Positions 14,286 to 63,175 of a stretch of 64,000 nucleotides of DNA are shown here, one piece after another. The notes beneath the pieces are model-generated. The model did no database searches, had not been told where the DNA came from, and worked only from the letters and a program-made list of their open reading frames with translations. A program made the position numbers and the translations under genes. Every line of letters begins with the position of its first letter. Within the stretch, counting starts at the first letter, position 1. The DNA lies in assembly GCA_947625095.1 (NCBI GenBank), contig CANQMX010000001.1, positions 62,001 through 126,000 of the forward strand. The letters are read 5' to 3'. This DNA comes from an uncultured Clostridia bacterium (GTDB lineage: Bacteria; Bacillota; Clostridia; Christensenellales; Borkfalkiaceae).

Positions 14286-14400
14286 TTTTGTTATGGCGCG
14301 CCGCTCTCGCGTTTTCTTTTTTCATACTTTCATTATATCATATTCAATAAATTATAAAGCGACATATGCCATGTTTTTTGAAAAAATTTTCAAAAATTTT

Positions 14401-14427
14401 GCGCCCCGCGGCAGAGCCGCGGGGCGC
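14401..14427. repeat. GC-rich hairpin GCGCCCCGCGG-CAGAG-CCGCGGGGCGC
   Basis: Perfect 11-bp arms; same core as 6789-6815. Confidence 0.8.
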
Positions 14428-14450
14428 GTGAGTGTATGAGGGATGGAGGA

Positions 14451-15117
14451 GTAACACCCCTTCCGTCACCTACGGTGACACCCACCCCTCCAAGGGGTGG
14501 GCAAGGGCTGCCCCTCCCCCTGCGTCCCCCTCCCCGCGGCAGAGCCGCGGGGAGGGGGATAAGATACACTCCCTGCGGTCGGTATGAGGAGGGCTGGACT
14601 TCGCCCATCGGGATTCTTCTTTCCCCTACTTCGCGCTACGCGCTACTTCGGCGCGATGCGCCTCGTGCCACGCTTAGTCGGCAATAGCGCGCGCGGGACA
14701 GAATGACGCGTATACAAACGCGGGACGGAATGACACGCGACACCCCTTCCGTCACCTACGGTGACCCCACCCCTTGGAGGGGTGGGCAATGGCTGCCCCC
14801 TCCCCGCGGCAGAGCCGCGGGGAGGGGGATAAGATACACTCCCTGCGGTCGGTATGAGGAGGGCTGGACTTCGCCCATCGGGATTCTTCTTTTCCCCACT
14901 TCGGCGCTACGCGCTACTTCGGCGCGATGCGCCTCGTGCCACGCTTAGTCGGCAATAGTGCGCGTGGGACAGAATGACGCGTATACAAGCGCGGGGCGGA
15001 ATGACACGCGACACCCCTTCCGTCACCTACGGTGACACCCACCCCTCTTAGGGGTGGGCAAGAGTTGCCCCTCCCCCTGTGTCCCCCTCCCCGCGGCTTC
15101 GCCGCGGGGAGGGGGGG
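14451..15117. repeat. Composite repeat island: direct copies (about 14453-14707, 14738-14978, 15010-15117) of P4 (CCTTCCGTCACCTACGGTGAC...), GC-rich hairpin, P1 and P2 modules
   Basis: Long near-identical direct repeats readable by eye. Confidence 0.9.
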
Positions 15118-15134
15118 ATAAGATGCACAAAAAA

Positions 15135-16244
15135 TTAGGGGGCGAATTGGATGAGGATCTGGTTCTGAACGTAGAGCCACTCTTCCTTGATGCGCGTGAT
15201 ATCGCCCACCGTCTCCATGAACTGCGCCGTCTTTTTCAGCGCCGACGCAAAATCCTCCCTCCAATCGCTGCCGAACGCCGCTTTGTACTTTTCGGCGGAG
15301 ATCCCCTCCGAAGTGCGAAGGGCGAGCATGACGAACTCGAATTTGGCGTCCGCCTCCTCCACCTTCTCGTTTTCGACGACGGGCAAAAAGCCGGACAAAA
15401 TGCACTTGATGTACTCATCCAAATTCATGGTGTTGGTGAACCGCCTTCCGTAGAAAAAGGAACTCGCCGAGACGCCGAAGCCGATGTACTCCCCCCGCCG
15501 CCAATAGTTCAGATTATGGCGACTTTCGTACCCCTTCCTGCAAAAATTGCTCACCTCGTAGCGGGTAAAGCCCGCCTCCTTCAAGAGCGAATAGCCGTAG
15601 TCATACAGTTCGCGCACCTCGTCGCCGTCGGGCAGTTCGCCGTTCAGATATTGCGTGTAAATGGGCGTGCCGTCCTCGGGCGTCAAAGCGTACATACTGA
15701 TGTGCTTTGCGCCGCTCCCCACCGCGATGGCGATGGTCTTTCTGACGTCCTCCTTGGTCTGCCCGCGAAGCCCCAGCATGACGTCCGCCGAGAAGTTTTC
15801 CCCCTTCAAAAGGGAGGTGCAGTAGAGGTAGTCGCGCACTGTATGGATGCGGCCGAGCTCTTGCAGTTGCCCGTCGATGGCCGTCTGCAAGCCGATGGAA
15901 AAGCGGTCGACGCCCGCCCGCTTGTAGGTGGCGATCTTATTTTCGTTCACCGTGCCGGGGTTCATCTCGATGGTGACTTCGGGATTTTTGGCGAGTTTGA
16001 ACAGCTTTTTTATCTGCTTCATCGCGCCGTAGATGTAGGCGGGGTCGATGACCGACGGCGTGCCGCCGCCGATATACACCGTGTCGAAGGTGACGCCCTT
16101 GAGTTCCTCCGCGCGAAGCCCCATCTCCTTGTAGAGGCACGCCATATACGCCTCGGCAAAGTTCAGTTTGTCGGGGAAGGACGTAAAATCGCAGTAGGTG
16201 CACTTGTGCTTGCAGAACGGAATGTGGATATAGATACCGGGCAT
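15135..16244 (-). CDS. hemW: Radical SAM HemW-like protein (coproporphyrinogen III oxidase family)
   Basis: MPGIYIHIPFCKHKCTYCDFTS (CxxxCxxC), YIGGGTPS, EMNPGT, RFSIGLQT. Confidence 0.92.
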   Translation of the reverse strand: MPGIYIHIPFCKHKCTYCDFTSFPDKLNFAEAYMACLYKEMGLRAEELKGVTFDTVYIGGGTPSVIDPAYIYGAMKQIKKLFKLAKNPEVTIEMNPGTVNENKIATYKRAGVDRFSIGLQTAIDGQLQELGRIHTVRDYLYCTSLLKGENFSADVMLGLRGQTKEDVRKTIAIAVGSGAKHISMYALTPEDGTPIYTQYLNGELPDGDEVRELYDYGYSLLKEAGFTRYEVSNFCRKGYESRHNLNYWRRGEYIGFGVSASSFFYGRRFTNTMNLDEYIKCILSGFLPVVENEKVEEADAKFEFVMLALRTSEGISAEKYKAAFGSDWREDFASALKKTAQFMETVGDITRIKEEWLYVQNQILIQFAP

Positions 16245-28359: not shown

Positions 28360-30990
28360 TTATTCGGCGTAACTCATCTCCCAAATGCGCGAGAGCGGGG
28401 AAAGGAACACCGTGCAACCGGCGAACACGTCGAGCGTGTCGTCGTCGAAAAGCCCCTTCGGATAGAGATAGAGCGCCTTTTTCTGATAGGTGGGAAGTTG
28501 AATGGCGAGTTCCATGACGAGATCGAGCGCGCAGAGGTTTTCCACCGAGCCGCCCTCCGAAAGTTTGTCTCCCGTGGAGATGGAATAGGCCTTCTTGCGT
28601 TCTGCGGCGTGCGCCTCCGCTCTGCCCTCCTCGATGCGCTCGGCGAGTTCGTTGAGAATGTCCTTTTGCGTCTGCACCGTGTCGTTTTCCGAAATATCCG
28701 CGCTCTCGATCCACGGGAAGCCCCACCAGAACACACTCATCGCGTTGGAATCCTTGTGATAGACCTCAAACATATCGGGATCGGGTGAAGAACGCATTTC
28801 GTCAGCCCACACCGCAACCTGTCCCATGTAGATCTTATAGTATGGCGCGGAATCGTGCACAACGGTGATATCAAAGCCGATCCCGTTCAAAATTTCCGCC
28901 GCGTAGGACAGGGCGGCGTAGGCGGGGTGATCTTCGGTATCGCCCGGAACGATGAAGGTGTATTTGAGGCGTTCCCCTTTCGCGTTCACAAGGAGGCCGT
29001 CGGGGTTGAGGGTATACCCTGCCGTTTGCGCATATTGCAGGGACGTCTCGCCCGTTCTATCGAAGGGGTAGTACGCCGTGGCTGCCCTCGGATAATAATC
29101 CTTGAGCGCCATGGACATAGGGCGATAGATGGCAGTGGCGAGGTCGCCGGCGCCGTAATAGTCGATGCAGAGGCTTGTATCGATGGCGGACATGATCGCC
29201 TTGCGGATATTGAGATCCTGCACGAGGCTTGCGTTGATGCCGATGTAGCCGTAGCCGAGGGCATCGGTGACGGTGTAGTCGAGTTTCTTCCTATCCGCAC
29301 CGGAGAGATTTTCTATTATCTCGTTGGTCAACTGCGGGGACGCAATATCAATGTCGCCCTCTTTCACCCCCTCATAGAGCAAGGAAGCGGGATAGACCTT
29401 GTAGCAAAGTTTCTTGATCTTGGGCGCGCCGAGCAGGAAGTTTTCATTGCTCTCCAAATAGACGGTGTCGCCGCTGAAAAAGTCGCTCGCCTTGACTTCG
29501 GAGATGTCCGTGGCGGCAGTGCCGCCCGAAGCAGACGCGCGGTAAGCCCCCGCCCCCATAGGCACTTGAATGGCGTGGACGCTCTGCATAAACGCATAAT
29601 CTCCGAACTCCGCGCCGAAATACTCCTGCCCCGCGGTGAGGTTGAATTTATCCGCCGTGGAGGAATAATATTTGAGGGGCGCAACGGGAAACGCGAACTC
29701 CCGAATGGCCTTGGGGTCTACGCCGTTGATGCGGATGTGGAGGATATCATACTCCTTGCCGAGCGCCTTGTCTCCGCTCCCGTCGGGGAGCGAACTTCTG
29801 CGCTCCAAAGTGATGCCCGAGACCGTGCGCACCGTCATCTCGTCGCCCACGAGTTCCCCTATCGCCTCGCCGCGGAGATACTGCCTGAAGGTGTTCGCCG
29901 TGGCATAGTAATTGATGATATTGTAAAGGTGATCCTTATAGGTCTTGGAGGCGTTCTCCTTGCCACTGAGCATGTAGGCGAACACGAATTTCGTGAGGGT
30001 ATTTTTGTCCGTTGCCGTGTTGGTATCGTAAAAGTTATCGCGCCCGTACCACGTGCGTGAACCGTCCCGATGCGCCGGCAGCGTGATGAGGCCGTAACTG
30101 TACAGGAAGATCTCCCATTGCTGCGTGATAAGTTTGTTGCCGTTCTCGTCGACGTACCTGTCGTAGTCCCTGAGGTCGGTCGCCATGGCGGTGTTCCAAT
30201 CCGCTTCGATCTCCTCGCGGAAGAGTTCTTCGACCTTTGCGATATCCGCCTTTTGTTGAACGTCCAAATCGTTGTAATCGTCTGTGCTGTCGTTCTCCGT
30301 CCAATCCACGATCCTCTGTTTGCGCTCGAGCGCCCGTTCTTCCACCAAATTTTCAAACCGGTTCTGCTCGCTTATATCGGTCGTCTGCGTTCTGTACGCC
30401 CGCAAGCCCTGAATATCCACGGAATACAACGTAGTCGAGCCGAGATAGACGGGGTCGAGATACATATAAAGGTTGAAGAGCACATCATTCTTGGTGAGCG
30501 GTGTACCGTCCGAAAAGGTGATGCCGTCCTTCAACGCGAAGTAATAATCGGTGTAGTAGTGGGAGTAGTCATCGGGGGCGGACTGATATTCGGGGGCGCC
30601 CGTCGTGACGACGCTGTAATCGTACGCGACGCAGGGTTCATCCTCTCCCGCGACAATTTCGCCCCATTTATCGGTGGCAAGCAGGCGAAGTTGCGTGATA
30701 TCCGTAATGGTTTTGTCCGCGCCGACGGCCGCGTCGGCGGTATCATAAAACGGATTGAATGAGCCGTTCGGCATATCCGTGGCAACGGTCAGAGGCCGCG
30801 TTTCATTGGCAGTGCCTTGATCGCCGCCCTCATCGCTTCCGCCGCTTCCGCCATTACCGCCGCCGTCTTTATCCGTGCTCTCGCCGTTCGGCGTAGAGCC
30901 TTCCGGGTTCTTTGGCATATTGCGGCAACCCGCAAGCCCCAAACTCAACACGAGAACAAAAGCCAAAAATACAGCCCAAATCCGCTTCAT
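28360..30990 (-). CDS. Peptide/nickel-type (family 5) ABC transporter substrate-binding lipoprotein
   Basis: Lipobox LGLAGC; large SBP with DGITFSDGTPLTKNDVLFN and DLNIRKAIMSAID typical of family 5 SBPs. Confidence 0.8.
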   Translation of the reverse strand: MKRIWAVFLAFVLVLSLGLAGCRNMPKNPEGSTPNGESTDKDGGGNGGSGGSDEGGDQGTANETRPLTVATDMPNGSFNPFYDTADAAVGADKTITDITQLRLLATDKWGEIVAGEDEPCVAYDYSVVTTGAPEYQSAPDDYSHYYTDYYFALKDGITFSDGTPLTKNDVLFNLYMYLDPVYLGSTTLYSVDIQGLRAYRTQTTDISEQNRFENLVEERALERKQRIVDWTENDSTDDYNDLDVQQKADIAKVEELFREEIEADWNTAMATDLRDYDRYVDENGNKLITQQWEIFLYSYGLITLPAHRDGSRTWYGRDNFYDTNTATDKNTLTKFVFAYMLSGKENASKTYKDHLYNIINYYATANTFRQYLRGEAIGELVGDEMTVRTVSGITLERRSSLPDGSGDKALGKEYDILHIRINGVDPKAIREFAFPVAPLKYYSSTADKFNLTAGQEYFGAEFGDYAFMQSVHAIQVPMGAGAYRASASGGTAATDISEVKASDFFSGDTVYLESNENFLLGAPKIKKLCYKVYPASLLYEGVKEGDIDIASPQLTNEIIENLSGADRKKLDYTVTDALGYGYIGINASLVQDLNIRKAIMSAIDTSLCIDYYGAGDLATAIYRPMSMALKDYYPRAATAYYPFDRTGETSLQYAQTAGYTLNPDGLLVNAKGERLKYTFIVPGDTEDHPAYAALSYAAEILNGIGFDITVVHDSAPYYKIYMGQVAVWADEMRSSPDPDMFEVYHKDSNAMSVFWWGFPWIESADISENDTVQTQKDILNELAERIEEGRAEAHAAERKKAYSISTGDKLSEGGSVENLCALDLVMELAIQLPTYQKKALYLYPKGLFDDDTLDVFAGCTVFLSPLSRIWEMSYAE

Positions 30991-31253
30991 GTTTTTTCTC
31001 CTTTTGTTTTTTGCGGGCAAAAAATAAGGACGCTCCACAAAGGGAACGCCCGCATGGAGTATCCCGATGTGTTGCGCCACAATAGATTTTCCTTAAAACA
31101 GCAAGTTTAGCCAATGGGAAAAATAGGATACAACGATGCCTATTGTAGCCATCAGCACAACTTACTATTCTATTGTGGCGCAATTTCAGTATACCACGCC
31201 CACGCAGAAATTGCAAGAAATTTATGAGATTTTCGGCAAAACCCTTCTCCCCT

Positions 31254-31436
31254 TCATTCACTCACTTCCGCCCCGCGCGTTCCTCCGCCCCCCTCATTCC
31301 GAACTTCCGCCCCGCGCGTTCCGCTGCCCCCTCCTCATTCCGAACTTCCGCCCCGCGCGTTCCGCTGCCCCCCTCATTCCGAACTTCCGCCCCGACCGCG
31401 CGTTGCGCGGTCGGGGCGGAAGTGAGTGAATCTTTC
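31254..31436. repeat. Half-hairpin array: about 40-bp direct repeats (starts 31265, 31304, 31345, 31384) ending in a complete hairpin CTTCCGCCCCGACCGCGCG-TTG-CGCGGTCGGGGCGGAAG; P1-type ends
   Basis: CTTCCGCCCCGCGCGTTCC...CTCATTCCGAA repeated; outer TTCACTCACTTCCGCCCC is inverted as GGGGCGGAAGTGAGTGAA. Confidence 0.9.
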
Positions 31437-31688
31437 CAAAACGCAAAGCCGCCCGCGCGTTTTCCCGCCGCCCGCGCAAACGAACAGCCCCCTACCCCCT
31501 CCCCGCGGCTTCGCCGCGGGGAGGGGGCGCTATGCGCCGCCGAGCTACTGCACGGCGGCGTTTGGTGGGAGGCGGGTTCCCCGCCGCTGCACGCCTCCAT
31601 TTGCCACACTACCGTAGGCTTAATGTCGGGGCAAGCGTTTTCGAGCCGCAACTCCATATCCCATACAAGTTACATTCCTCGCGCGTAT

Positions 31689-32009
31689 TTATTTTGCGCA
31701 GCAAAAGAAATCGCGCGAAATTTCCAACAAAAAGCTTATTGGTCGAAACCCGTCGTTACACGAGATCATCGCGGAGTGCGGGTCTTTCATCCAATCGCCG
31801 TAAAAATTGCCGCCGCCCGATGAAAGTTCCCTTACAAACCGCGCCATGCTCTCCCATGCGCCGTCGCAAAGATCTTTGGGCTTTTCGCCGTTCTCGGAGA
31901 TAAAAACCTGCCCGATCTTTACATCGCAGGCGTGCTCCATGGGGTTTTCGAATTTTTCCATGAGGTCGGGGTATTCGCTCCGCCGCATCGCCGTAATTTT
32001 CACTCTCAT
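31689..32009 (-). CDS. TIGR04076-like small protein
   Basis: VKITAMRRSEYPDL...IGQVFISENGEKPKDLCDGAWESMARFVRELSSGGGNFYGDWMKDP...ISCNDGFRPISFLLE. Confidence 0.65.
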   Translation of the reverse strand: MRVKITAMRRSEYPDLMEKFENPMEHACDVKIGQVFISENGEKPKDLCDGAWESMARFVRELSSGGGNFYGDWMKDPHSAMISCNDGFRPISFLLEISRDFFCCAK

Positions 32010-33075: not shown

Positions 33076-34458
33076 ATGAACATCGACGACGAACAAAAAA
33101 ACTCCACATCGGAAGAGGTGAAGCCCGCCGAAACCGCCGCGGAAACCGCCAAAACGACGGAAATTCCCGCCGAAATGCCGACAGAAACGGCTGCGGAAGT
33201 TCCCGCGGAAGTTCCTGCGGAAACGGCTGCGGAGGCGGAGGACGACCTCGATAGGGGCGACAGGAGCGACTTTGCCGCCCGCTATAACCGCGCCAAAGAG
33301 CGCGAGATGGAGAAATTGAAGCAGGAGATGGAGGCGCAAAAGGCGAGCGACTCCAAAGCGAAAAACCGCAAGTGGTGGATAAAGACCTCGCTGCTCCTTG
33401 TGCTCATCGCCTTTTCCATCGCCATGATGTTCACAATCACCAAGTACGTCGGCGGCAACACGGTGAGCCTTACCACCATGATCCGCGGCGTAAATTGGGC
33501 GTGGTTCGGGGGGCTTATCGGGATCGTCCTCGTCGCCATGCTGCTTGAGAGCATGAAGTATTCCTACCTGCTCAAAATTTCCACGGGCAAGTGGCGGCTG
33601 AAAAATTCCGTAAAGGTGATGTTCCTCGGCAAATATTACGACGGCATCACCCCGCTCGGCACGGGCGGACAACCCTTCCAAATCTACTACCTGCACAAAA
33701 AGGATATTCCCGCGGGCGTGGCAACTTCCGTGCCCCTCGTAAAATATATCGTCAACACCGTTGTGTTCTGCCTCATCGCGGTGGGCTTTCTCATCACCGC
33801 CCACCTCTGCGTGGATATCAACAGCATTGGCGGAACGGTCATCATGGTGGTGGCGTGGATCTCCCTCGCCTGCAATTTTGCCATTCCCCTCATCATCGTG
33901 TTTGCCTCCCTCTTCCCGCGGGCGGGCAAAAAGCTGGTCGTAAAGACGGTGGGCTTCCTCAACAAGATCCGCATCGTAAAGCGGCGCTACCCCACCATGA
34001 AAAAGTACGTCTATGAGATGGATGAGTACCGCCATTCCCTGAAATCGCTCATCCGCGAGGCGTGGAAACTCATTCCGCTCGTATTCATCTGCGCCGCCGA
34101 GACGATGGCGGGGCTTCTCGTTCCCTTCTTCACCGTGCTCGCCATTGCGCCCGTCGGCGCCGAACTCTACCCCGAACTTCTGTTGCAGATCCTGTGCCTC
34201 GGCGTTATCTCCTTCTACTCCTCCTCGCTCATTCCGACGCCCGGCAACAGCGGCGCGAACGAGGCGGTGACGACCCTCGCCCTTATCATGATCCTGGGCG
34301 ATCAGCCGGTCATAACGGCACTGTCGGGCTGGATCGTGCTCTTCTGGCGGTTCTTTGTCTACTACATCTACATTCTTTCGGGGATCGGGATCAACATCTT
34401 CGAGATCATCCGCAGTGCGGTGAGAAGACGCCGCGCCGAACGCGCTTCAAAGGGATAG
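33076..34458 (+). CDS. YbhN/UPF0104 (LPG synthase TM-region-like) flippase-like membrane protein, paralog 1, acidic N-terminal extension
   Basis: LGKYYDGITPLGTGGQPFQIYYLHKKDIPAGVATSVPLVKYI; many TM segments. Confidence 0.85.
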   Translation: MNIDDEQKNSTSEEVKPAETAAETAKTTEIPAEMPTETAAEVPAEVPAETAAEAEDDLDRGDRSDFAARYNRAKEREMEKLKQEMEAQKASDSKAKNRKWWIKTSLLLVLIAFSIAMMFTITKYVGGNTVSLTTMIRGVNWAWFGGLIGIVLVAMLLESMKYSYLLKISTGKWRLKNSVKVMFLGKYYDGITPLGTGGQPFQIYYLHKKDIPAGVATSVPLVKYIVNTVVFCLIAVGFLITAHLCVDINSIGGTVIMVVAWISLACNFAIPLIIVFASLFPRAGKKLVVKTVGFLNKIRIVKRRYPTMKKYVYEMDEYRHSLKSLIREAWKLIPLVFICAAETMAGLLVPFFTVLAIAPVGAELYPELLLQILCLGVISFYSSSLIPTPGNSGANEAVTTLALIMILGDQPVITALSGWIVLFWRFFVYYIYILSGIGINIFEIIRSAVRRRRAERASKG

Positions 34459-34464
34459 CAAACA

Positions 34465-35700
34465 ATGGACGAAAAATTCGGCGCGGAGCAAATGACAAAC
34501 GCGCCGCAGGATGAGAAAGGGAAAGACAAGCTCATCATGGATGATTTCGCCCGTCAGGTGGAGGAGCGCAAGAACCGAGATACCAAGGCGAAGCGCCGCA
34601 ATTGGTGGATCAAGACGGTGCTCCTCGTCGCGCTCATCGGCGTCTCCATCTACCTTCTGTTCCCCATCACCAAGGGGCTCACGGGGCAGGGTACGAAGGG
34701 CTTTGTGGAGATGATACACGGCGCGAGCCTTCCCTACTTCTTCCTGCTCATCGGCGCCGTGCTCGCCTACATCGCGACGGAGAGTTTCCAATATTCGTAT
34801 ATCCTGAAAACTTCCACGGGGAAATTCCGCCTGCGCAACTCCCTGAAAGTTGCCATCCTCGGCAAATATTACGACGGCGTGACCCCGCTCGGCACGGGCG
34901 GACAACCCTTCCAAATTTACTATCTTCACAAAAAGGACATCCCCGCGGGCGTGGCGACCGCCGTTCCGCTTGTAAAATACATCTTTTCGACCTTTGCAAA
35001 GGGCTTGCTCACCGTCATTTTATTCAGCCTGGCCTTCACCCTTCTGCCCCCGGCGGTCACCAGCGACTCCAAGTTTATCGCCGTCTATGCGGTGGGCTGG
35101 GTCTCCATGTTCTTCAACATGATGGTGCCCGTCATCATGGTGTTCGGCTCGCTGTTCCCGCGGGCGGGAAAAAAGTTTATCATCCGCATCATCAATGTGC
35201 TCGCGAAGATGCACATTGTAAAGCGCAAGTATAGGGTCACGAAAAAGTACGTCACCGAGATGGGCGAATACCGCCGCGCCCTGAAAGAAATTTTGCGGCG
35301 GTGGTGGGTGGTGATTCCCCTCTACCTCATCTGCCTTGTGACGGCCGTCATCAACTTCTCGCTGCCCTTCTTCACCGCGCTGGCGCTTGCCAGCATGACG
35401 CCCACGGCGGAACTTTGGCTGCAAATGCTGTGCGGCGGGCTGCTCGCCTTTTACTCGGCCTCTCTCTTCCCCAGCCCGGGCAGCAGCGGCGTTATCGATC
35501 TTACCGCTTCGCTCGTGTTTGCCTCGGTGCTCAACAACGTTGCGGGGGGCGCGGGCGGCGCCGTTGCCGCGTGGATCATCCTCGTGTGGCGGTTCTTTAC
35601 CTACTACATCTACATTCTTTCGGGGATCGGGATCAACATCTTCGAGATCATCCGCGGCGCGGTGAGAAGACGCCGAGCCGAACGCGCTTCAAAGGAATAG
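34465..35700 (+). CDS. YbhN/UPF0104-like flippase-like membrane protein, paralog 2
   Basis: LGKYYDGVTPLGTGGQPFQIYYLHKKDIPAGVATAVPLVKYI. Confidence 0.85.
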   Translation: MDEKFGAEQMTNAPQDEKGKDKLIMDDFARQVEERKNRDTKAKRRNWWIKTVLLVALIGVSIYLLFPITKGLTGQGTKGFVEMIHGASLPYFFLLIGAVLAYIATESFQYSYILKTSTGKFRLRNSLKVAILGKYYDGVTPLGTGGQPFQIYYLHKKDIPAGVATAVPLVKYIFSTFAKGLLTVILFSLAFTLLPPAVTSDSKFIAVYAVGWVSMFFNMMVPVIMVFGSLFPRAGKKFIIRIINVLAKMHIVKRKYRVTKKYVTEMGEYRRALKEILRRWWVVIPLYLICLVTAVINFSLPFFTALALASMTPTAELWLQMLCGGLLAFYSASLFPSPGSSGVIDLTASLVFASVLNNVAGGAGGAVAAWIILVWRFFTYYIYILSGIGINIFEIIRGAVRRRRAERASKE

Positions 35701-35706
35701 TAAAAA

Positions 35707-36951
35707 ATGGACGAAAAATTCGACGCGGAGCAAATGACAGACGCGCCGCAAAACGAAAAATTTGACGCGGAGCAGATGTTAGACGCGCCGCAGGATGAAA
35801 AATCCGACACGGGAAAGACGATCGGCGCGCCGCAGGACAGGAAGCGTCTGCGCAATTGGTGGATCAAGACGGCGCTGCTGCTCATCCTCATCGGCGTATC
35901 CATTGCCATCATGCTCACGCTCGGCGACTACGTTGCGGGCGACGAGCAGATCGGCTTTGCGGAGATGGTGAGAGGGATAAACCTTCCCCTCTTTTTTGCG
36001 TTTTTGGGATTTATCCTCCTGTACATTCTTGTGGAGAGCGCAAAGTACTCCTATATGTTGAAGCGCTACACGGGGAAATTCCGCCTCCGCACCGCCGTAA
36101 AGGTGATGTTCCTCGGCAAATATTACGACGGCGTGACCCCCTTTGCGAGCGGCGGGCAGCCCTTCCAGATTTACTACCTCTACAAAAAGCGGGATATCCC
36201 GCGGGGCGCGGCGGCCGCCATTCCCCTTGCGCGGATGTCCGTGAGTCTGTTTGTGTGGTGTCTCTTCGCCCTCGTCTTGATGAGCGTTGCGCCCAACTAT
36301 CTGGAAAGTTCGGCGCACATCGCCGTCTCCATGACGGTGCGCATCGTGGCGTGGATCTCCATTGTGCTCAACCTCTCCTTCCCCCTCCTCTTTGCCGTGC
36401 TCTCCTTCTTCCCGAAGTTCACGATGAAGGGGATGGCGTTCGTCATTTTTCTGCTCAAAAAGATGCACATCGTAAAGCGGGAGTACGCCGTAACCAAAAA
36501 ATATGTGCACGGCGTACGGGAATACTGCACCGCGATGCGCGAACTCATCTGCAAGTGGTATTTTCTGCTCCCCCTCCTCGTGTTGTGCCTCATGGAGACG
36601 TGCATCAACGTGTGCATCCCCTTCTTCGCCGTCGTTTCCATTGCCAATGTACCCGCCACCGCCGATCTATTGCTGCAAATTGCCTGCCTCAACATCATCT
36701 CGCAGTTCTCCGCCTACCTCATTCCCACCCCGGGCAACACGGGCGCAGTGGAGACGACGACCTCCTTTGTGTATGCCTCCGTCCTGATGGCGCGCCCCGG
36801 GGTGAGCGCCGTGATCGGCTGGGTCGTCCTCGTGTGGCGGTTCTTCACCTTTTACATCTACATATTGTCGGGGATCGGGATCAATATATTTGAAATCATC
36901 CGCGGCGCGGTCAGAAACAGGCGCGCGCGGAACTTACAGCAGAATTTATGA
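35707..36951 (+). CDS. YbhN/UPF0104-like flippase-like membrane protein, paralog 3
   Basis: LGKYYDGVTPFASGGQPFQIYYLYKKRDIPRGAAAAIPLARM; repeated N-terminal KFDAEQMxDAPQ(N/D)EK. Confidence 0.85.
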   Translation: MDEKFDAEQMTDAPQNEKFDAEQMLDAPQDEKSDTGKTIGAPQDRKRLRNWWIKTALLLILIGVSIAIMLTLGDYVAGDEQIGFAEMVRGINLPLFFAFLGFILLYILVESAKYSYMLKRYTGKFRLRTAVKVMFLGKYYDGVTPFASGGQPFQIYYLYKKRDIPRGAAAAIPLARMSVSLFVWCLFALVLMSVAPNYLESSAHIAVSMTVRIVAWISIVLNLSFPLLFAVLSFFPKFTMKGMAFVIFLLKKMHIVKREYAVTKKYVHGVREYCTAMRELICKWYFLLPLLVLCLMETCINVCIPFFAVVSIANVPATADLLLQIACLNIISQFSAYLIPTPGNTGAVETTTSFVYASVLMARPGVSAVIGWVVLVWRFFTFYIYILSGIGINIFEIIRGAVRNRRARNLQQNL

Positions 36952-55282: not shown

Positions 55283-55428
55283 CCTCATACCGAGTTTTCC
55301 GCCCGCCGCACTTTGTGCGCCCTTCCTCATACCGAGTTTTCCGCCCGCCGCACTTTGTGCGCCCTTCCTCATACCGAGTTTTCCGCCCGCCGCACTTTGT
55401 GCGGCGGGCGGAAAACGAGCGTATCTTC
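55283..55428. repeat. Half-hairpin array: two identical 42-bp units (gttttccgcccgccgcactttgtgcgcccttcctcataccga) then complete hairpin GTTTTCCGCCCGCCGCAC-TTT-GTGCGGCGGGCGGAAAAC; P1-type ends
   Basis: Repeat starts at 55294, 55336, 55378 (exact 42-bp period); perfect 18-bp arms in last unit. Confidence 0.95.
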
Positions 55429-55521
55429 TTTTCTTATGCTCCCTCATTCCGCCTGCCCTTCTCTATCCCCCTCCTTTTTAAGGAGGGGGACACAGGGGGA
55501 GGGGTGTCCCAATCTCTCTGC

Positions 55522-55600
55522 GTCATTCTGTCCCGCCCGCACTATTGTCGACTAAGGGCGGCACGAGCGCGTAGCGCGAAGTAGGAAAAAGAAGAATCCC
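55522..55600 (-). repeat. P2 dispersed repeat
   Basis: gtcattctgtcccgcccgcactattgtcgactaagggcggcacgagcgcgtagcgcgaagtaggaaaaagaagaatccc. Confidence 0.9.
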
Positions 55601-55635
55601 GAACAACGAAGTCCGCCCCCCATATCTCCCAAACT

Positions 55636-55679
55636 CCTCATACCGAGGCCGCCGCCCGAGCGGCGGCCGAGTGTATCTT
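55636..55679 (-). repeat. P1 element, stem GGCCGCCGC-CCGA-GCGGCGGCC
   Basis: CCTCATACCGAG...GAGTGTATCTT ends. Confidence 0.85.
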
Positions 55680-55680
55680 A

Positions 55681-55743
55681 AAAGATTCTCTCGCCATGAG
55701 CCCGCCGCGCATTGCGCGGCGGGCTCATGGCTCGGAATGAGGG
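55681..55743 (+). repeat. P1 element, stem CCATGAGCCCGCCGCGC-ATT-GCGCGGCGGGCTCATGG
   Basis: AAGATTCTCTCG...CTCGGAATGAGG ends; abuts previous element head-to-head. Confidence 0.88.
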
Positions 55744-56090
55744 GATAACCCGCGGCGCGCGGCAATAAATGTATCTTCCAATCCCTCATACCGACATCTC
55801 CCAAACTCCTCATACACTCATTTTGTGCCCCGCGCGCACTATTGCCGACTAAGCGCGGCACAAGCCCGCAGGGCGAAGTAGCGTATCTTCCCCTGAACAC
55901 AGTCCTCATTCTTATCCCCCCCCTCCCCGCGGCAAAGCCGCGGGGAGGGGGCCGCAGGGGGAGGGGCTTCCTCTCCCATTTCTATCTTTCCCGTTATTTT
56001 CCCGTGCGCCCCCATCCGCATCTGCCCTCGTTCCCCTCCGTATAAAAAAATACGGGCGTTCAGCCCGTACTTTTTTGTGCCGCCGATTTT

Positions 56091-60883: not shown

Positions 60884-61108
60884 TTTTTTTGGCGCGCCCG
60901 CATTTTTGCGCCCTTCCCCGCCGCCGTTCTCAATTTTATTTTACCATTTCCCGCGCAAAAACGCGGGCGCATATGACAACTTTTTTACAAAAATTTTTGA
61001 AAAATTTTTTGGGGAAGATACACTACTTCGGCGCGTTGCGCCTCGTGCCGCGCTTAGTAGACGAATAGTGCGCGCGGGGCAGAATGACGCGAAAAACCGA
61101 GCGCGGGC

Positions 61109-61137
61109 AAGATACGCTCGCTGCGCTCGGTATGAGG
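61109..61137 (+). repeat. P1 element, minimal core (AAGATACGCTCGCTGCGCTCGGTATGAGG)
   Basis: Conserved P1 ends. Confidence 0.8.
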
Positions 61138-61400
61138 AAAGGCAGCAGAATGAGGAATGCCTCCCCACCACCGCCTACGGCGGAGCCGTCTCGGGCGGGT
61201 AGAAACCCGCCCTACTGCGCGGCTGTGCCGCTTGTGCCGCCCTTGGTCAAAAATGGTGCGGGCGGGACGGTCACCGTTCGCGCCTTCCGATGCGCTCACT
61301 CACCGCGGAACGCCTCGCACAGCCCACAGGGCTGATGCCCATGGTGCGTTCCGCGACCTCCAAAGGAGGGTAGGCCTTGCAAGACGGACTGCGTTGTTCG

Positions 61401-61470
61401 GGATTCTTCTTCTCCCTACTTCGCGCTACGCGCTCGTGCCGCGCTTAATAGACAATGGTGCGCGCGGGGC
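61401..61470 (+). repeat. P2 dispersed repeat (short variant)
   Basis: ggattcttcttctccctacttcgcgctacgcgctcgtgccgcgctta... Confidence 0.85.
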
Positions 61471-61590
61471 GCGTGCCGCCGGCGCATAGCGTCGGCGGCA
61501 GCTGGCTCGGTATGAGGAAGTGCAGCAGAGTGGCACCCCTTCTGTCACCTGCGGTGACACCCACCCCTCCAAGTCGAACTGCGTTGTTCG

Positions 61591-61647
61591 GGATTCTTCA
61601 CGTCCCCGCCCGCGGCACAGCCGCGGGCGGGGACGTGAAGAATGACG
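61591..61647. repeat. P2-end hairpin variant GGATTCTTCACGTCCCCGCCCGCGG-CACAG-CCGCGGGCGGGGACGTGAAGAATGAC
   Basis: Perfect 23-bp arms 61593-61615 / 61621-61643. Confidence 0.93.
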
Positions 61648-61666
61648 CGTAGACCCGAACGCGGGC

Positions 61667-61686
61667 AAGATACGCTCGGTATGAGG
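61667..61686 (+). repeat. P1 element, stemless (AAGATACGCTCGGTATGAGG)
   Basis: Conserved P1 ends fused with no palindrome. Confidence 0.75.
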
Positions 61687-61824
61687 AAGGGCGACGGCGA
61701 TATACGGGATTGCGGAGATATGAGGGGAGCGGCGGCAGGAGGAAATGTTCTATGTCGTACGGAAATTGCATGATTTTCCGATACAAAAAACCGCCCCGAA
61801 AGGCGGCTTGCGATTTTTTGTTTT

Positions 61825-62052
61825 TTACGGCGCTTGCCTTTTGCCGTCCGCGCCCTCCAGCCCGACGAGCACATCGAGCGAAATTCCGTAAAACGCGGCG
61901 AGCACCATGCAATCGCGGACATTGGGAATGTGCTTGTTGCTCTCCCACCGGCTGATATTCTGTTGTTTAAGCCCCGTCTTTTGGGCGAGTTCGTTTTGGG
62001 AAAGCCCCGCCCACTCGCGTTGCTCTTTGAGCGCACGACCGATATCTATCAT
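61825..62052 (-). CDS. XRE-family HTH transcriptional regulator
   Basis: GRALKEQREWAGLSQNELAQKTGLKQQNISRWESNKHIPNVRDCMVLAAFYGISLDVLVGLEG. Confidence 0.92.
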   Translation of the reverse strand: MIDIGRALKEQREWAGLSQNELAQKTGLKQQNISRWESNKHIPNVRDCMVLAAFYGISLDVLVGLEGADGKRQAP

Positions 62053-62101
62053 ATTTTCCTCGCAATTATTTTTACACGATTTCGGATAAAAAATGCTTGA
62101 C

Positions 62102-62144
62102 TTACACGTTATTGTGTAATATGATTGATTACACAATTTCGTGT
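62102..62144. promoter_or_regulatory. Paired operator-like sites ACACGTTATTGTGT (62104-62117) and ACACAATTTCGTGT (62131-62144)
   Basis: Two related inverted repeats 27 bp apart between the divergent XRE and Cys-rich genes. Confidence 0.7.
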
Positions 62145-62155
62145 GGAGGTGAGCT

Positions 62156-62404
62156 ATGGAAAAATATTGTTGGAGTTGCGGAAACTTTCGCCCGTTCTAT
62201 ACAAAGGGATTTTGCTGTTTTACAAAGACGGACTACGGCACTTGCTCTTTGCGGACGCACGTCAAGGAAAAGCACGAAACGTGCGAATTTTGGAGGATGC
62301 GTCCCCACTCCTATCCCGTAAAAAATGCCGTCATCGTGCGCAGTTTGGAAGAGGCGCTTGTGCATATTGCCGCGATCAAAGAAATTTTGGAGGATAAAAA
62401 ATAA
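62156..62404 (+). CDS. Small Cys-rich protein, unknown function
   Basis: RBS GGAGGTGAGCT then MEKYCWSCGNFRPFYTKGFCCFTKTDYGTCS...KHETCEFWRM. Confidence 0.8.
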   Translation: MEKYCWSCGNFRPFYTKGFCCFTKTDYGTCSLRTHVKEKHETCEFWRMRPHSYPVKNAVIVRSLEEALVHIAAIKEILEDKK

Positions 62405-62427
62405 AAGCCCCTTCGCCGAGAAGGGGG

Positions 62428-62489
62428 AAGATACACTCTCCAGCCGCCCGCCGACGCATAGCGTCGGCGGGCGGCTGGCTCGGTATGAG
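62428..62489 (+). repeat. P1 element, stem CCAGCCGCCCGCCGACGC-ATA-GCGTCGGCGGGCGGCTGG
   Basis: AAGATACACTCT...CTCGGTATGAG ends; perfect 18-bp arms. Confidence 0.93.
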
Positions 62490-62506
62490 TAAAGGCGGCG
62501 GAGTGA

Positions 62507-62612
62507 CACCCCTTCCGTCACCTGCGGTGCCACCCACCCCTTAGAGGGGTGGGCAAGAATTGCCCCTCCCCCTGTATCCCCCTCCCCGCGGCTTTGCCGC
62601 GGGGAGGGGGAT
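62507..62612 (+). repeat. P4 plus GC-rich hairpin module (CCTTCCGTCACCTGCGGTG...CCCCCTCCCCGCGGCTTTGCCGCGGGGAGGGGG)
   Basis: Matches modules at 14451-15117. Confidence 0.85.
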
Positions 62613-62642
62613 AAGATACACTCGCTACGCTCGGTATGAGGA
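62613..62642 (+). repeat. P1 element, minimal core (AAGATACACTCGCTACGCTCGGTATGAGG)
   Basis: Conserved P1 ends. Confidence 0.8.
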
Positions 62643-62735
62643 GGCGGCAGTATGAGGAATACCTCCCCACCACCGCCTACGGCGGAGCCTCCCCTCCATA
62701 GGAGGGTAGGCCTTGCAAGACGGACTGCGTTGGTC

Positions 62736-62814
62736 GAGATTCTTCTTCTCCCTACTTCGCGCTACGCGCTCGTGCCGCGCTTAGTAGACAATCGTGCGCG
62801 CGGGACAGAATGAC
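62736..62814 (+). repeat. P2 dispersed repeat
   Basis: gagattcttcttctccctacttcgcgctacgcgctcgtgccgcgcttagtagacaatcgtgcgcgcgggacagaatgac. Confidence 0.9.
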
Positions 62815-62834
62815 GCGAAAAACCGAGCGCGGGC

Positions 62835-62863
62835 AAGATACACTCGCTACGCTCGGTATGAGG
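62835..62863 (+). repeat. P1 element, minimal core
   Basis: AAGATACACTCGCTACGCTCGGTATGAGG. Confidence 0.8.
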
Positions 62864-62881
62864 GTCGAACTGCGTTGTTCT

Positions 62882-62915
62882 GGATTCTTCGGTCGCTACG
62901 CTCCCTCAGAATGAC
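62882..62915 (+). repeat. P2 short form GGATTCTTCGGTCGCTACGCTCCCTCAGAATGAC
   Basis: P2 ends without the long internal segment. Confidence 0.85.
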
Positions 62916-62953
62916 GCGGAGGACAAGGGTGTGGGGGATATGGGAAGATGCAC

Positions 62954-63175
62954 TACTTCGCGCTACGCGCTTGTGCCGCGCTTAGCGGAAAGCAATGTCA
63001 TGTTTCGACTACGCTCAACATGACGTATTGGTGCGGGGGGACGGGGTTACTTTCTGAAAATTTCGGCTACTGCGCGCTACGGGCTTGTGCCGCGCTTAGT
63101 AGAAAGCAATGTCATGTTTCGACTACGCTCAACATGACGTATTGGCGCGGGGGACGAGGTTACTTTCTGAAAATG
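62954..63175. repeat. Two tandem about 113-bp units, each with the P3 palindrome GTCATGTTTCGACTACGCTCAACATGAC (62997-63024, 63111-63138)
   Basis: Near-identical direct repeats, including gttactttctgaaaat from the end of the adjacent CDS. Confidence 0.93.

Follow-up and report, generated by a model that had tools for sequence, protein, structure and literature searches.

The array considered here occupies positions 31253-31434 of the window (the whole 64,000-nucleotide stretch of DNA analysed, from an uncultured gut bacterium of the Clostridia), in the intergenic space between a gene for a solute-binding lipoprotein (28360-31080, minus strand; PF00496) and a TIGR04076 gene (31689-32009, minus strand). 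It consists of three left half-units, with arms beginning at 31265, 31304 and 31345, followed by one complete hairpin which caps the array. The first half-unit is made up of a left foot, TTCATTCACTCA (31253-31264, plus strand), and of the left arm CTTCCGCCCCG continued by CGCGTTCC and a pyrimidine linker (31265-31292, plus strand). The second (31293-31333, plus strand, 41 bp) has the left foot CTCATTCCGA(A), the left arm and the linker, and the third (31334-31372, plus strand, 39 bp) likewise has left foot, left arm and linker; what is repeated is a stem arm, joined by the left foot of the element, CTCATTCCGAA, and by a pyrimidine linker. The cap (31373-31434, plus strand) is a complete element with the foot CTCATTCCGA, a 19-bp stem formed by ACTTCCGCCCCGACCGCGC and GCGCGGTCGGGGCGGAAGT around the 3-nt loop GTT (31383-31423), the right foot GAGTGAATC and the tail CTT. 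Folded as single-stranded DNA, the array has a computed energy of -38.4 kcal/mol (z = -5.0).

The surroundings of the array contain features of separate interest. A candidate structured leader RNA lies on the minus strand at 31005-31200, upstream of the solute-binding lipoprotein gene, with a strongly conserved core (CGGGATACTC..TGCGGGCGTTCC..TTGGAGCGTCCTTATTTTTTGCCCGC), a TATACT box in front of it, and a long stem preceding the core of which both sides change between copies. Three copies stand ahead of different genes in the portions of this genome that were read, and orthologous copies occur in two relatives (copies at L071:4688, L076:15661, L159:621 and L171:802, all on the minus strand); no Rfam family matched the candidate. 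Three tandem paralogous LPG_synthase_TM genes (PF03706) fill 33076-36951, and the 5' end of the third contains a 42-bp repeat that is in frame (35711-35844).

Exact matching places CTTCCGCCCCG at 31265, 31304, 31345 and 31384 on the plus strand and at 31412-31422 on the minus strand, and at no other site within the 64 kb. The spacings of 39, 41 and 39 agree with the original prediction, which had named these four starts and a period of about 39-41 bp; its statement that only the last unit carries the complementary arm is borne out by the sole minus-strand match, and its observation that the left edge is the inverted repeat of the right edge holds over 20/20 nt (ATTCACTCACTTCCGCCCCG against CGGGGCGGAAGTGAGTGAAT, 31256-31275, which takes in most of the foot at 31253-31264, forming a perfect inverted repeat with 31412-31431). 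When one mismatch is allowed, CTTCCGCCCCG has 18 matches in the window against 3.8 expected, and at least 18 were reached in 0 of 100 shuffles, although motif counts inside one array are not independent of each other. The fourth unit diverges from the half-units past 12 nt, where GACCGCGCG replaces CGCGTTCC, and as such the cap does not begin as an exact copy of a half-unit. The leftmost foot is also at variance with the others: where CTCATTCCGA is the normal form, TTCATTCACTCA is a left foot that has been turned into the right foot's complement, and a foot rewritten in the same manner is found on perfect palindromes elsewhere.

The cap is one member, with covarying feet of the T/A type, of a dispersed repeat family of the form CTCATxCCGA-[core]-GAGNGx'ATCTT, in which the core is a variable palindrome. 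Within 426 kb of this genome there are 91 complete elements, whose cores, 61 of them distinct, form perfect palindromes of up to 26 bp with few exceptions, and whose variable foot bases covary (A/T in 77, T/A in 8, G/C in 4, mismatched in 2). As read from the sequence, AT-x-CC in the left foot would pair with GG-x'-AT in the right foot, with a single T bulged out, and inward of the feet a tandem G.A/A.G mismatch precedes the variable stem. A kink-turn was considered for this arrangement and rejected, given that the tandem G.A pairs are present but the bulge is of 1 nt, rather than the 3 nt of the textbook motif. The tag is CCTC in 145/149 elements of this class (class A) and the tail CTT in 144/149, other tails being CTC or CCC; sister classes carry the tags TGTC (35) and CGTC (29). 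A more general scheme for the sister classes, TCAT-nnn-GA-[hairpin]-GA-n'n'n'-ATC, has a complementary triplet in 65/87 matches, with 7 different triplets, as compared with 0/1 in a reversed-sequence control. Dispersed repeats of the form TCATTCTGA-[hairpin]-GAAGAATC, present in this genome and in 23/300 sampled genomes of the phylum, share this foot scheme, but their foot is without the T bulge and their tag is TGTC or CGTC in place of CCTC.

Exact copies number 182 in the whole genome and 0 in reversed controls; counting this genome, 11 members of the genus carry them, after a scan of 36 same-genus relatives, as against 0/24 other genera of the order, and the controls were empty. The 24 matches found in IMG/VR, which might have pointed to viral carriage, all have unpaired cores and are attributable to chance. 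Base-by-base reading covered approximately 0.82 Mb (46%) of the 37-contig draft genome, in stretches picked partly around matches.

The window itself holds several further members. A second array (locus 2) begins with two identical 42-bp half-units, CTCATACCGAGTTTTCCGCCCGCCGCACTTTGTGCGCCCTTC (55284-55367, plus strand), and is capped by a complete element with the core GTTTTCCGCCCGCCGCACTTTGTGCGGCGGGCGGAAAAC and the right foot GAGCGTATC (55368-55427, plus strand; RNA fold z = -7.1). The CCTC-tagged family is also represented by a single complete element at 55637-55679 (plus strand; G000:C1:117637-117677), by a single short-stem element at 62837-62862 (minus strand), and by minus-strand elements at 62640, 62489, 61136, 16336, 14858 and 14588. 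Long intergenic mosaics of dispersed modules extend over 14350-15150, 55430-56000 and 61020-63100, the modules being CCCCCTCCCCGCGG hairpins (six in the window, one of the sites being 31495-31527), CTAAGCGCGGCACGAGCGCGTAGCGCGAAGTAG, GGGATTCTTC/AGAATGACGC and CGTCACCTACGGTGACACCCACCCCT.

A literature search with the literal motif sequences returned no match, and the family was located by way of reviews on REPs. Its tag, its AT/AT foot, its intergenic and mostly unidirectional or convergent placement, and the absence of an associated transposase match the CGTC-tagged REPs, and on these features of sequence and setting we would place it among them. The CGTC-tagged REPs were defined by Di Nocera, De Gregorio and Rocco in 2013, with four families; they carry an unpaired 5' tag CGTC that varies to TGTC or CCTC, have AT/AT as the first two stem pairs, show stem variation with compensation and a short tail, are intergenic and of high copy number, and are without a dedicated transposase (PMC3733652). 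The differences are nonetheless considerable. The published elements have stems of 8-9 bp and loops of 4-5 nt, while the present family has a 5-bp foot helix with one T bulge, the tandem G.A/A.G mismatch and an inner stem of 2-26 bp; their tail is mostly CCA, where the present family has a tail that is also short but reads CTT, CTC or CCC; and head-head dimers predominate among them with head-tail dimers negligible (PMC3733652), whereas neighbouring pairs within 300 bp in this genome are in the same orientation in 41 cases and inverted in 2. Arrays of half-units are likewise a feature which sets the present family apart. The host here is a member of the Clostridia, and the words Firmicutes and Clostridi are absent from PMC3733652. 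Given its stem length, its tandem G.A mismatch, the letters of its tail, its clustering in one orientation and its arrays of half-units, we class the family as a variant that stands outside the four published ones.

The better known GTAG REPs, BIMEs and REPINs, with their RAYT (TnpAREP) genes, are also short, dispersed, intergenic palindromes that form mosaic clusters, with some units in tandem along with flanking DNA (PMC6006769, PMC3116915). On their model the half-units would be truncated REP copies, inserted serially by a RAYT/TnpA-like single-strand transposase with the foot CTCAT as its target, and the sharp boundaries of the feet are what such an enzyme might leave. The stems of some half-units are also unlike those of their caps (C2:67963, C6:4387), which indicates that some arrays require either insertion beside an old half-element or later turnover of the stem, and in the CANRFW metagenome-assembled genome (MAG) one two-unit cassette (half plus full) is found at many loci with unrelated flanks, from which it follows that some arrays can also move as units. 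We nevertheless regard serial insertion as unlikely. The tags here are CCTC, CGTC and TGTC, with the GTAG/GTGG tag absent; inverted pairs are few; and a Y1 transposase, and with it a repeat-flanked cognate RAYT gene, is lacking in 10/11 of the element-bearing genomes, several of which are 96-99% complete. RAYT mobilisation was rejected after a search for Y1_Tnp in this genome and 40 members of the genus, as its distribution does not follow that of the elements. The sole Y1 gene among the carriers (G000:C1:210038-210394, minus strand, 166 codons) adjoins its own inverted repeat, GACCTGCCAGTC/GACTGGCAGGTC, is not flanked by family elements, and is probably an ordinary IS200-type element. Linkers that copy the flank and exact tandem 42-bp units are, moreover, not expected from insertions. 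As a separate matter, at L125, L126, L130, L135, L137, L144 and L150 the CANRFW cassette runs directly into an element of a different class in inverted orientation (AAGATACGCTCCGCCGC..GGCGTCGGTATGAG), which makes a REPIN-like composite that recurs with different flanks.

With a hexamer-trained, home-made gene map, which was used in place of a discarded greedy longest-ORF map (80 elements inside ORFs), 145/148 complete elements are intergenic; with this home-made caller their sites are unidirectional in 76 cases, convergent in 44 and divergent in 8, and the gene on the 5' side is co-oriented with the element in 92/128. This placement, the perfectly paired stems and covarying feet, and the strong predicted folds of the locus 1 array and the locus 2 cap would all suit an RNA element selected within a transcript, such as an mRNA 3'-end stabiliser, a processing site or an attenuator. 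As an account of the array, however, we think this quite improbable, for the half-units themselves have no pairing partner and selection for structure would not keep them. The hairpin is followed by no U-run, and Rfam gave no match at the gathering threshold, only chance miRNA and sRNA models below cut-off. The comparison with relatives also speaks against it: the locus 1 array is absent at the orthologous sites of the nearest relatives, G020 and G003, and at locus 2 the number of units varies, G003 having no element, G008 one hairpin and G020 five half-units and a cap with a different stem, as against two and a cap in this genome. The original prediction had called for strain comparison of unit number, and this variation is in keeping with it. 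At the G020 site orthologous to locus 2 (L216, G020:C5, around 2520-2740) the array is built from another repeat, CATATGGAATTGCCGCCCGCGCATCACATTGCCCCC, with several half-hairpin units and a complete-hairpin cap, and as such this architecture is represented there independently.

Further arrays, for which the original prediction had proposed a search, proved to be numerous: the half-plus-full layout occurs at about 20 places in this genome, and a scan of 85,462 species genomes returned 31 stretches, all of them titled uncultured Clostridia and from the 'Lapin' sample series (the name suggests a rabbit host, on which the records are silent). In these other MAGs there are usually 2-4 units with the cap at the right end, and the breakpoints are often in the arm or the loop. 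The original prediction would have been refuted by constant unit number among relatives and a lack of other such arrays, and neither holds. Such recurrence makes it very improbable that the array is an artefact of short-read metagenome assembly. While this is a 37-contig draft genome and read artefacts are possible at hairpins, the array is shorter than 180 bp, its units are non-identical, and the architecture is seen in many independently assembled MAGs from differently labelled samples, with the same polarity and different units.

This polarity is pronounced. Within 110 nt in this genome, two left feet without an intervening right foot are found 21 times, and two right feet twice. Perfect palindromes whose left foot complements the right foot exactly (CTCATACACTC...GAGTGTATC) gave 15 pattern matches, 13 of them clear, against 1 conversion of the right foot in the opposite sense (41 genomes), and two longer left-converted palindromes were seen besides the 15. 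Furthermore, in 8/41 independent loci the final 10 nt of the linker agree with the upstream flank at 8 or more of 10 positions, as compared with 0.83 expected when flanks are shuffled between loci (at most 5 in 5000 shuffles) and 0.03 for shifted positions of the same locus. Linkers that repeat the element's own upstream flank are what duplication in place predicts; at L146, for instance, CCGACCCGCC stands before the first foot and again past the half-arm. The linker of locus 1 has no clear match to the outside flank, which counts against duplication in place at that site, as does the divergence of its half-units from the cap past 12 nt. The earlier notion, in which a single palindromic element had its left arm copied again and again, is for the most part upheld: the units are tandem copies of one element's left half, and the linker repeats the upstream flank at several independent loci, but the dispersed REP-like family and the recurrence of half plus cap across many loci and genomes had been missed, and the left edge is a rewritten foot rather than the element's normal left foot.

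Taken across relatives, the half-plus-cap layout speaks for copying errors at hairpins and not for the action of a transposase. We consider it likely that the locus 1 array is a REP of the CGTC kind (CCTC class), of which the left half has been duplicated in place three times, and, from the footprints that such events leave, that the cause was probably strand-biased replication slippage with foldback template switching at the REP hairpin. In this scheme, the polymerase would stall or fold back at the hairpin while one strand is being copied, and the 3' end would slip back such that the left half is re-copied, with breakpoints in the arm or loop. The duplicates would then be without a right arm, while the last unit, which adjoins unique flank, would retain it, and once two copies are present, these direct repeats would allow more to be added by ordinary slippage. 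The rewritten left foot may come from a related foldback, in which the nascent strand templates on its own new right half and the left foot becomes a perfect complement, such as that at 31253-31264. The resulting array, whether as DNA or RNA, would fold into a single strong hairpin, while the half-units would be looped out or remain single-stranded.

Left-half duplication and left-foot rewriting have one polarity, which is what a preference for one strand as template would give. Element orientation is associated with GC skew (Fisher p = 6e-7), but the association is clustered and inconsistent, and as such we draw no single rule for the replication strand. Hairpins are known to arise and to become perfect through template switching (PMC8794818), and in quasipalindrome correction imperfect inverted repeats are likewise perfected by copying arm onto arm, with strand bias (PMC8794818, PMC7202029); by comparison, we see here repeated natural footprints in one repeat family, alongside tandem duplications of half-hairpins. 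For the family as a whole, we put forward only tentatively that it may be a transposase-free REP family that is diversifying, and perhaps spreading, by strand-biased template switching at its own hairpin, the arrays and left-converted palindromes being the footprints of this process.

By what means CGTC-tagged REPs increase in number in the absence of a transposase is a question that their describers left open (PMC3733652). Since this genus holds hundreds of copies with constant feet, free turnover of stems, and directional duplications and conversions, a copying-error model can be tested by counting. The family also illustrates how perfect long stems can originate and be maintained without selection on each base pair. 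If the template-switching reading of the family is true, it would document, in natural genomes, the strand on which hairpin errors occur, with covarying feet that stay constant while the stem is freely rewritten.
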